Shown piece by piece: positions 2,112-4,977 of a DNA stretch of 64,000 bases. The notes beneath the pieces were generated by a model, which did no database searches, had not been told where the DNA came from, and worked only from the letters and a program-made list of their open reading frames with translations. The stretch is taken from positions 1 through 64,000 of the forward strand of contig CALXNZ010000006.1 of NCBI GenBank assembly GCA_944389885.1. Direction: 5' to 3'. How positions within the stretch are numbered: the stretch's first letter is position 1; each line of letters begins with the position of its first letter. The stretch comes from an uncultured Opitutales bacterium (GTDB lineage: Bacteria; Verrucomicrobiota; Verrucomicrobiia; Opitutales; Intestinicryptomonadaceae). The position numbers were made by a program, and so were the translations under genes.

Positions 2112-2337
2112 ATTATCCTCCAATATTAATATTATTGTTTAAATTTGAGACGCCTAAAGACGGCATATTTCACTGTCAATAGAGAATAATGATATTTTTT
2201 GTCTTTTTCGGCTCAATTTATCAATTAAGCGCAAAATGAAAAATCGGACACTCCATGTCCGAAAAATGCCCAGATAAAATATATTGGCTTGACCTTGCCT
2301 ATAAGGCCGGCCCCCTACAAGAAAATAGGTTGGTTTC

Positions 2338-2553
2338 CTAATTGCCTGAAATTCCGGAGAATTTGAATCCCGCGTCCTCCACAGCTTTTTTCAATGCGGA
2401 TTCTGCGACGCCCTCCTTGGTTTCAACATAGGCTTTTTTTGCGGACAAATCCACTTCTGCGGACACGACCCCATTTACAGATTTCAAAGCCTTTTCCACT
2501 GCCGCCGCACAATGCGGACAATTCATTCCATCTACAGATATTTTTATATGCAT
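2338..2553 (-). CDS. copZ: CopZ-like copper chaperone, possible internal start within copA
   Basis: The last 71 codons of copA begin with ATG at 2553, preceded by AAAGGAGA at 2561-2568 with 7 bases between. That is an excellent ribosome-binding site inside a coding frame. Read alone the segment is a complete heavy-metal-associated domain (MHIKISVDGMNCPHCAAAV to the end) of the size of free CopZ chaperones. I infer that a separate copZ was joined in frame to copA by loss of the copA stop, and that free chaperone may still be made. Free CopA-derived chaperone is known in E. coli, where it is made by frameshifting. Whether both products exist here cannot be read from sequence. Confidence 0.55.
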   Translation of the reverse strand: MHIKISVDGMNCPHCAAAVEKALKSVNGVVSAEVDLSAKKAYVETKEGVAESALKKAVEDAGFKFSGISGN

Positions 2554-4833
2554 AATCGACTCTCCTTTCGCTTCAGATTCTCCCATATCTCCAGACAACA
2601 TATCGGGTTTAAAGAAGCGTAGCCTAAGCGAGTTTGCGACCACGCTCACAGAGCTAAAACTCATAGCCGCTGCCGCTACAATAGGATTCAATGCTATTCC
2701 CCACGCTGTGTAAAATGCGCCGGCCGCGACTGGAATTCCTACGGCATTATAAAAAAACGCCCAAAATAGATTCTGTTTTATGTTGCGCAAAACAGCCCTC
2801 CCAAGATTTATCGCAACCACCACATCGGAGAGTCCGCTTTTTACCAATACAACATCTGCGGATTCCACGGCGATATCCGTCCCCGTGCCTATCGCGATTC
2901 CCACATCTGCGCGGGCGAGGGCGGGGGCGTCGTTTATGCCGTCGCCCACCATGGCTACCCGCCTTCCATCAGCGCGCAATTTTCTAATTTGAAAATCTTT
3001 ATCCTGCGGCAAAAGTTCAGAAAGAGCGGAATCAGCTTTAACCTTTTCTTTAACAATAGCAGCTGTCTTGGAATTGTCGCCGGTGAGAATAATCGTAGTG
3101 AGTCCCATTTTATTCATAGACTCGACGGCAGAGCCGCTGTCTTGCCGTATTTTATCATAGACGGCAATTATTCCCATAAGAACTCCGTCCCTTGCGCAAT
3201 AAAGGGGAGTTTTTCCCTCTGAAGCCATTTTTTCTCCCAAGCCTTCAGGTATGCGGATTCCATTTGAACTCATCATTAAGGCGTTCCCGGCAATATAGAG
3301 GGCCCCGTCTATAAAGCCCGATACGCCCTGCCCCGCAATCTGTCTAAATCCGGATACTTTTTTCACCGCGAGACCGCGATTGTCCGCTTCCGATACTATC
3401 GCCGATGCAAGGGAATGTTCCGAAAGCCTTTCCAAGGAGGAAATATGCGTTAAAATATCGTTTGAATCAATGTCGGACAATGGAACCACATCGGACACCG
3501 AAGGTCTGCCTTCCGTTATAGTTCCGGTCTTGTCGAGCACTACTGTATCTACTTTTCCCAGGGCCTCCACCGCCTGCGCGGATTTAAACAATATACCCAT
3601 CTCCGCACCTTTTCCGGTTCCGACCATTATTGCCGTCGGGGTCGCCAAACCGAGAGCGCACGGACATGATACCACCAATACGGAAATTGCCGTTGAGATT
3701 GCAAATCCCATGTCATATCCGAGCATAATCCACGTCAGGGCAGAAAGGGCGGCCGCGCAAATTACAAATGGAACGAACACTCCGCTTACCTTGTCTGCAA
3801 GCCTTGCTATTGGGGCTTTTGAGGACGTTGCATCGTCCACAAGTTTTATAATTCTGGCGATTGCCGTATCCTCGCCGACTCTCACAGCCCGCATTAAAAA
3901 ATGTCCCGACAAATTTACCGTAGCCCCGCTCACCGAATCCCCGTTTTTCTTTGAGATTGGCATACTTTCACCGGTTAGAGCGGATTCGTCCAAAAGCCCA
4001 GTTCCTTCGATTACAATTCCGTCCACGGGAATTTTTGCGCCGGCTTTGACGCTTAAAATGTCCCCAACCGCAATATTCTCCACCGGCACAGACACCTCTT
4101 TGCCGTTTATTAACGCAATTGCGAACTTAGGGGAGAGATCCATCAATCGGCGTATAGCCTCCGAAGTTCTCGATTTCGCCTTCTCCTCAAAATATCTGCC
4201 CAGGGTTATGAGGGATAAAATCATTGCCGCAGATTCAAAATACAGCGAGCCTCCGGCATGTTTCGCGCCCTCCAAATCCCCCTCCGACAAAGCCATGAAC
4301 ATAGCGCATATAGAGCATATTCCGGACAGCATAGCCGCCCCGGAACCCAATGCTATCAAAGTATCCATATTTGGAGATCCTTTAAATAGAGAGGAGAAAC
4401 CCGTTCGATAATACTTAAAGTTTACCAATACAATGGGCAGCACAAGCAGGAGCTGCGCAAGCGCAAAGCACATAACATCAGAAAGAAAATCCGGCAGTGG
4501 AAATCCTAAGGTGCTGCCTAATGAAATATACACCAACGGAATCGCAAATGCGAACGACACAATAACCCTGCGTTTCATATAAAGGGTTTCATTTGTCTGA
4601 TAACCCTTCCCCATAACACCGAACCTTTGGGAGGCTCCATAACCAGCTCCTCTAACGGCAGATATTATATCATTGGCTGAAATGCAATCTTCCCGGTAAG
4701 ACACTTCCATGGTATTTTTCAAAAGGTTTACCATAACCTCGTCAACCCCGCGAAGTTTCGACACCGCCCTCTCGACTCTGTTTGAACAAGCCGCGCAACT
4801 CATTCCGCTTACATTAAAATATTCCCTTTTCAA
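2338..4833 (-). CDS. copA: Copper-exporting P1B-type ATPase with C-terminal CopZ-like domain
   Basis: This is an inner-membrane pump that moves Cu(I) out of the cytoplasm using ATP. In order it has an N-terminal heavy-metal domain (GMSCAACSNRVERAV), the actuator TGES loop, the transport site VSCPCALGLATP, phosphorylation motif DKTGTITEG, and the hinge GDGINDAPALARAD. YN in membrane segment 7 and MSFSS in segment 8 are typical of Cu(I) pumps. A second metal-binding domain (GMNCPHCAAAVEKAL) follows about 25 residues after the last membrane segment. That is an unusual place, since these domains normally sit at the N-terminus. The start is taken as TTG 4833, preceded by AGGAG at 8 bases and giving KREYFNVSGMSC, the usual CopA beginning. 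ATG 4878 and TTG 4914 are alternatives. An inverted repeat upstream (4978-5005) may bind a regulator. Confidence 0.93.
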   Translation of the reverse strand: MKREYFNVSGMSCAACSNRVERAVSKLRGVDEVMVNLLKNTMEVSYREDCISANDIISAVRGAGYGASQRFGVMGKGYQTNETLYMKRRVIVSFAFAIPLVYISLGSTLGFPLPDFLSDVMCFALAQLLLVLPIVLVNFKYYRTGFSSLFKGSPNMDTLIALGSGAAMLSGICSICAMFMALSEGDLEGAKHAGGSLYFESAAMILSLITLGRYFEEKAKSRTSEAIRRLMDLSPKFAIALINGKEVSVPVENIAVGDILSVKAGAKIPVDGIVIEGTGLLDESALTGESMPISKKNGDSVSGATVNLSGHFLMRAVRVGEDTAIARIIKLVDDATSSKAPIARLADKVSGVFVPFVICAAALSALTWIMLGYDMGFAISTAISVLVVSCPCALGLATPTAIMVGTGKGAEMGILFKSAQAVEALGKVDTVVLDKTGTITEGRPSVSDVVPLSDIDSNDILTHISSLERLSEHSLASAIVSEADNRGLAVKKVSGFRQIAGQGVSGFIDGALYIAGNALMMSSNGIRIPEGLGEKMASEGKTPLYCARDGVLMGIIAVYDKIRQDSGSAVESMNKMGLTTIILTGDNSKTAAIVKEKVKADSALSELLPQDKDFQIRKLRADGRRVAMVGDGINDAPALARADVGIAIGTGTDIAVESADVVLVKSGLSDVVVAINLGRAVLRNIKQNLFWAFFYNAVGIPVAAGAFYTAWGIALNPIVAAAAMSFSSVSVVANSLRLRFFKPDMLSGDMGESEAKGESIMHIKISVDGMNCPHCAAAVEKALKSVNGVVSAEVDLSAKKAYVETKEGVAESALKKAVEDAGFKFSGISGN

Positions 4834-4977
4834 GGCTGCCACTCCTGCACAAAGTTTTAAATTTATATTATACGGCATGTCCAACGTTCCAAGAAACACC
4901 CAAATCGGAGGCAAAATCCGACTAAACTCTTATTAAATTTCCACGAACGCGAACATTGTCCTTTCGCAAATTTTATT

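Follow-up and report, generated by a model that had tools for sequence, protein, structure and literature searches.

We analyzed a copper-pump gene, copA, on the minus strand of a 64,000-nucleotide stretch of DNA from an uncultured Opitutales bacterium (positions 1 to 64,000 of contig CALXNZ010000006.1, assembly GCA_944389885.1; hereafter, the window). We consider it likely that this gene is an in-frame fusion of copA with copZ in which the Shine-Dalgarno (SD) sequence and the ATG of copZ have been kept, and that the single gene makes both the pump, as predicted, and a free copper chaperone. The frame runs from an inferred TTG start at 4833 to 2338 and is open throughout its 831 codons. A C-terminal heavy-metal-associated (HMA) domain at 2541-2362 lies in the same open frame as the N-terminal HMA domain, with zero stop codons between them. 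Between the internal SD sequence, AAAGGAGA, and the internal ATG lies a spacer of 7 nucleotides (nt), GTCGATT (2560-2554). The motif, its coordinates, the 7-base spacer, and the in-frame ATG at 2553 had been pointed out in a first-pass annotation of this DNA, and all are exact in the sequence. The features at the junction are as follows.

2338..4833, minus strand: copA, P1B-type Cu+-ATPase with an in-frame C-terminal CopZ-type HMA domain (Pfam HMA twice, E1-E2_ATPase, and Hydrolase; TIGR01511).
2561..2568, minus strand: AAAGGAGA, internal SD sequence within the coding sequence of the linker (Lys-Gly-Glu), -8.7 kcal/mol to the anti-SD.
2551..2553, minus strand: internal ATG, in frame, four codons ahead of the HMA domain, where translation of the free chaperone is predicted to begin.
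2338..2553, minus strand: nested copZ, predicted product of 71 amino acids with the motif GMNCPHC (CxHC, CopZ2 type), HMA domain at 57.6 bits.

The chance background for this site comprised the 64-kb window and 400 kb more from the same assembly (464 kb). SD energies of -8.7 kcal/mol or stronger precede 1.6-1.8% of internal ATGs in this background. The window site is A-rich and nearly unstructured, with a folding energy of -4.1 kcal/mol over positions -30 to +30, within the weakest 2% of internal ATGs, and an 81-nt fold places most of the SD and ATG in an open loop. Only 1 of 2238 internal ATGs combines an SD of -8.7 kcal/mol or stronger with a fold as weak as -4.1 kcal/mol, and the window site satisfies both limits. 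A start-site classifier using SD energy, fold energy, and base composition, trained on the genome's own starts (cross-validated area under the curve 0.88), scored 7 of the 2238 internal ATGs (0.3%) as high as the window site, which ranks above approximately 78% of the inferred true starts.

We collected 138 such fusions, of which 131 are non-redundant, and they span at least nine phyla. When 85,000 species genomes were scanned with an alignment of the junction, 80 loci were returned, of which 79 are fused in one frame; they belong mostly to Bacillota, with others from Actinomycetota, Spirochaetota, Elusimicrobiota, Deferribacterota, Nitrospinota, Thermodesulfobacteriota, and Myxococcota. Because loci were ranked by their likeness to an alignment with Met in 7 of 12 members, the scan could favour Met but not the SD. 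Two further family-wide samples contributed another 46 fused and 14 split genes. The copA of a same-genus genome (G011) is fused at 52% identity, without a stop codon, and has GGAG, 8 nt, and ATG at the same codon as the window gene; another same-genus copA (G002) ends at a contig edge before the junction. Among 13 fused genes read from the window phylum, seven have the ATG, and four of those seven have an SD of -5.6 kcal/mol or stronger.

In split relatives, copZ lies directly downstream of copA, and its SD, spacing, and HMA register match those of the fusions, as in L157, L253, and L254, which have AAGGAGGAAACTATC followed by ATG. In L157, AAGGAGG, 8 nt, and an ATG four codons before the HMA domain reproduce the register found inside the fused genes. 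In the copA-copZ operons of Bacillota (e.g., L157, L245-L250, and L253-L254), the HMA domain starts about 30-300 nt past the copA stop codon. The first-pass annotation had proposed a copA-copZ fusion with a kept ribosome-binding site and suggested looking for a stop codon in relatives. The comparison bears this out: the G011 gene has none, and the split relatives have a stop codon followed by copZ. Fused relatives that all lacked the internal ribosome-binding site would have spoken against the proposal; instead, the site is conserved across the 131 non-redundant fusions. The suggestion of a local event in the window genome proved too narrow, and we rejected a recent local fusion, as the fusion is common to the same-genus genome and many phyla.

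A start codon lies no more than eight codons before the C-terminal HMA domain in 121 of the 131 non-redundant fusions, and residue -4 from the domain is Met in 74% of the 131. At the other linker positions, a single residue never exceeds 40%, except at -2 and -1 between the Met and the domain. The anti-SD energy over the 121 start sites has its minimum at a 7-nt gap (-7.57 kcal/mol) and is elsewhere flat near -0.5 to -1; separate copZ starts (n=15) give the same curve, with -7.78 kcal/mol at the 7-nt gap. Energies of -8.7 kcal/mol or stronger occur at 48% of junction ATGs compared with 1.5% of ATGs within the pump cores. One fusion (L206) has TTG in place of ATG behind a full AAGGAGG. The SD of the internal sites (-8.26 kcal/mol) is stronger than that of the best main-start candidates of the pumps (-6.89); where a junction offered several candidate starts, we used that with the strongest SD, a slight bias to strong values, though most junctions have one ATG. 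Local structure is also weaker at internal sites than at core ATGs (-3.8 versus -14.7 kcal/mol, p 5e-56). Junctions between tandem N-terminal HMA domains have an SD-start in 1 of 20 cases; the lone case, from an uncultured Clostridia genome (L162), has an ATG at -4 of its second N-terminal HMA domain and an SD of -6.9 kcal/mol.

We further held the amino acids fixed and redrew synonymous codons according to each gene's own usage. The observed SD energy was -8.38 kcal/mol against an expected -5.43 (84 loci, p 8e-14), and -8.44 against -5.16 for cores less than 60% identical (36 loci, p 9e-7); the loci are kin, so all p-values given here overstate independence, and more weight should go to this pruned set and to the core-ATG controls. 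The core ATGs match the synonymous expectation and are not stronger. Conservation of the internal start goes well beyond what amino-acid constraint explains, reflecting selection at the nucleotide level. At the domain boundary of these genes, there is a conserved, in-frame candidate start with its putative ribosome-binding site.

Recurrent and recent loss of the copA stop codon could have left a decaying ribosome-binding site and ATG without function, the fused pump being the sole product. Split operons with the same ribosome-binding site exist among the relatives as raw material, and in several fused lineages the SD or the ATG is gone. However, a tree of 169 cores, built with the quick method FastTree, accounts for the fused and split states with only four changes and contains large supported clades in which every gene is fused and the SD is retained. 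Because state changes are few and wholly fused clades keep the SD, the internal site has outlasted long divergence in the fused form. An SD of -5.6 kcal/mol or stronger is retained in 31 of 42 fused cores less than 60% identical to each other, though synonymous positions should be saturated, and the SD energies exceed the synonymous expectation. A functionless relic is thus unlikely.

On the same tree, the window gene groups with four others in a supported set of five: the G011 gene, one from Desulfovibrio (L130), a deltaproteobacterial one (L136), and a split gene of a genome in the same class (L097; G217:C9:1-4200). In L097, two tandem copies of the HMA unit come after copA as a near-exact repeat of ~240 nt, and each is shifted into the +1 frame from the sequence before it across ...AAC TGG TAG GGT...; the ATG of the first copy lies inside the end of copA, and the second copy has no obvious start.

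Free CopZ might also come from a separate short transcript begun inside copA instead of from internal initiation on the full mRNA. There is a reported parallel, as production of the E. coli copA chaperone is said to involve differential transcript formation too, judging from the title of Drees et al. of 2017, cited in PMC7558416. In the window, a consensus scan of the minus strand from 4525 to 2553 found no promoter-like sites and no excess over shuffles, although host promoters may differ from the consensus. A short transcript would use the internal ribosome-binding site anyway, and we regard this origin as quite improbable.

Another explanation is that the purine-rich linker was selected as protein, a flexible hinge of Lys, Glu, and Gly with an accidental likeness to an SD, and that the C-terminal HMA domain is purely regulatory. 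Lys, Glu, and Gly are indeed frequent in the linker, and a regulatory role has been suggested for the C-terminal domain of Archaeoglobus fulgidus CopA (PMC7558416). Even with the residues held constant, however, the synonymous-codon test gave SD strength in excess of expectation. The SD is confined to a gap of 4-9 nt from the conserved Met, and these linkers lack it 15 nt upstream. Counted from the ATG, it also occurs in all three frames (43/27/5), and the variants AAG GAG GAA, xAA GGA GGx, and xxx AGG Axx encode different residues (KEE, QGG, and GRK). A linker shaped by its protein sequence alone is therefore very unlikely.

SD-like sequences within genes can stimulate frameshifting, as in E. 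coli dnaX. Even with such stimulators known and a frameshift in E. coli copA itself (PMC10187127), it is highly improbable that the SD-like stretch acts by pausing ribosomes or stimulating a frameshift, whether for membrane insertion, folding, or a tail-less pump, as a pause needs neither a conserved ATG, nor a TTG substitute as in L206, nor the spacing seen at true starts, and no consistent slippery sequence was seen by eye behind the ATG in the listed junctions.

Several observations weigh against an internal start in the window gene or a general need for it. The window organism has SD sequences at a minority of its starts only: motifs of the AGGAG/GGAGG type precede 5.7% of inferred starts, compared with 2.3% of internal ATGs and 1.5% in shuffles. 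Applied to the window site by itself, the synonymous-codon test does not reach significance (0.36). The 16S gene was not found in the window assembly, and all energies assume the usual anti-SD. Among other lineages, a clade of Acidaminococcaceae (L261, L266-L268) is fused but has lost the start and the SD; in the window phylum, several fused lineages (L091, L092, L094-L096, and L100) miss the start or the SD, and L098 and L099 are fused with the ATG but without the SD. Most start-less genomes of the window phylum carry no other HMA gene, and many Bacillota with a fused copA also encode other small HMA proteins. As the start-less genomes of the phylum are mostly devoid of another HMA gene, the free chaperone is dispensable in some hosts.

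As for the SD usage of the window organism, regions upstream of starts are AT-rich (66% versus 51% before internal ATGs) with a weak SD signal (window and G000 loci L109-L128), and most genes seem to begin without a strong SD. An argument from the SD of the window gene alone was dropped as weak, since the genome uses SDs at few starts; a composite start score was needed. That start-less fusions are compensated by a separate copZ was not borne out by the survey of HMA genes. The Acidaminococcaceae genes form a supported clade with fused CopA frames of 872-1009 amino acids and, with both ATG and SD lost, constitute a natural start-less control. The frame of L100 (G211:C68:10500-15500) is open for 1482 amino acids and comprises an HMA domain, the CopA core, a second HMA domain, and a further tail of ~430 residues with several hydrophobic, membrane-like segments (LHCAGMCGALLLG, MPCGPLQAMQLWALG).

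The window gene encodes a Cu+-exporting P1B-1 ATPase (CopA) by domain, model, and motif criteria, and transport is predicted accordingly from its sequence. It scores 559.5 bits against TIGR01511, above the curated cut-off of 397, and has both the CPC motif of the transmembrane metal site (SCPCALGLATP) and an N-terminal CxxC HMA domain (GMSCAAC). The remaining features of the gene and its surroundings are listed below.

4842..4846, minus strand: AGGAG, SD-like, 8-nt spacer to the main TTG start, SD energy -6.9 kcal/mol.
4639..4818, minus strand: N-terminal HMA domain with GMSCAAC (CxAC, CopA type), PF00403 at 66.8 bits.
3601..4134, minus strand: E1-E2 ATPase (actuator) domain, amino acids 234-411 (Pfam).
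2905..3552, minus strand: HAD-like hydrolase (phosphorylation/nucleotide-binding) domain, amino acids 428-643 (Pfam).
2244..2262, minus strand: terminator-like hairpin and T-run 3' of copA, from a consensus scan only, which found 6 such sites in the region versus 3.9 expected.

The C-terminal HMA domain has the CxHC motif in 125 of the 138 fusions, whereas the N-terminal domain has CxAC in 125 of 133; CxHC is the motif of CopZ2-type chaperones (PMC7558416). From these motif classes, the tail is most likely derived from copZ and not from the N-terminal domain. The 71-residue product resembles a single-HMA CopZ in its length (~70 residues), its MNCPHC motif, and its coverage of HMA profile positions 2-62 of 62, and its relatives of solved structure include CopZ structures. 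CopZ proteins bear either MxCxHC or a CxGC-type motif according to PMC7558416. Its best NCBIfam model, CopZ_AFE_1862, scores 71 bits, under the cut-off of 85 bits, and we therefore call the product CopZ-type without assigning it to the equivalog. Both HMA domains of the window genome are in copA, and neither this genome nor G011 has any other; a free HMA chaperone could thus come solely from the fused copA. The genome also encodes a second heavy-metal-type P-type ATPase (G000:C8:14895-16754, a 675-residue frame with 35% identity to CopA) without an HMA domain.

We propose that a downstream copZ was joined in frame to copA and retained its own SD and ATG inside the linker. Translation from the main TTG would produce the Cu+-exporting ATPase with the CopZ-type domain tethered to its tail, and initiation at the ATG at 2553, which we infer to occur in vivo, would yield a free chaperone of 71 residues (about 7 kDa), presumably stable. 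The free form would collect cytosolic Cu+ and hand it over to the pump, and the tethered copy may have a separate role as a built-in donor or regulatory site. More tentatively, copA genes with a nested copZ could form a widespread, unreported class among anaerobes of at least nine phyla, in which two competing starts on one mRNA set the ratio of free to tethered chaperone, possibly in response to copper, and free CopZ may form a pair with its tethered counterpart, in the way SctQ-C and SctQ do.

If this proposal is correct, annotation pipelines miss a copper chaperone in many genomes, some of them without another HMA protein. Split, nested, and start-less versions would provide a natural series for measuring the value of a free versus a tethered chaperone. 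We found no report of internal initiation in copA in the literature, a provisional result with most subscription journals outside the search.

The new element is the conservation of the internal start rather than the C-terminal HMA domain. That copper ATPases carry their metal-binding domains only at the N-terminus, as the first-pass annotation had assumed, does not hold: in A. fulgidus CopA, one lies at the C-terminus (PDB 3fry; PMC7558416), and with 138 such fusions the arrangement is common, so we rejected the idea that the domain is unusual in itself. Like the window CopA, A. fulgidus CopA combines an N-terminal HMA domain, the ATPase core, and a C-terminal HMA domain in a single protein; it differs in that the parts of the source available to us report no internal start and describe a separate CopZ bearing an Fe-S domain (PMC7558416). 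The copA-copZ operons of Bacillota have the gene order and the SD-ATG-HMA spacing of the fusions and differ by the stop codon between the genes. Internal in-frame translation also provides the small subunit Cas11 within the large-subunit gene of type I CRISPR systems (PMC11899642), although proteins and function are unrelated. In type III secretion, SctQ (YscQ, SsaQ) is made as the full protein and, by an internal translation start, as its C-terminal domain SctQ-C (PMC4295842). Here, too, one gene replaces two, as the sister flagellar system has FliM and FliN; SctQ belongs to another protein family, and its short form is a structural subunit, whereas that of the window gene is a predicted metal chaperone. 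For E. coli copA, Meydan et al. and Drees et al. reportedly described in 2017 a programmed -1 frameshift giving CopA(Z). E. coli copA supplies, and the window gene would supply, a Cu+ pump and a free HMA chaperone from one gene, but E. coli makes its chaperone from the opposite end of the protein (PMC10187127). There, it is the N-terminal domain cut off by the frameshift, and in the window gene the C-terminal CopZ-type (CxHC) domain would be made from an in-frame internal start. If so, bacteria have at least two independent routes to a pump and a chaperone from one gene, the C-terminal one being spread over many gut and other anaerobes.
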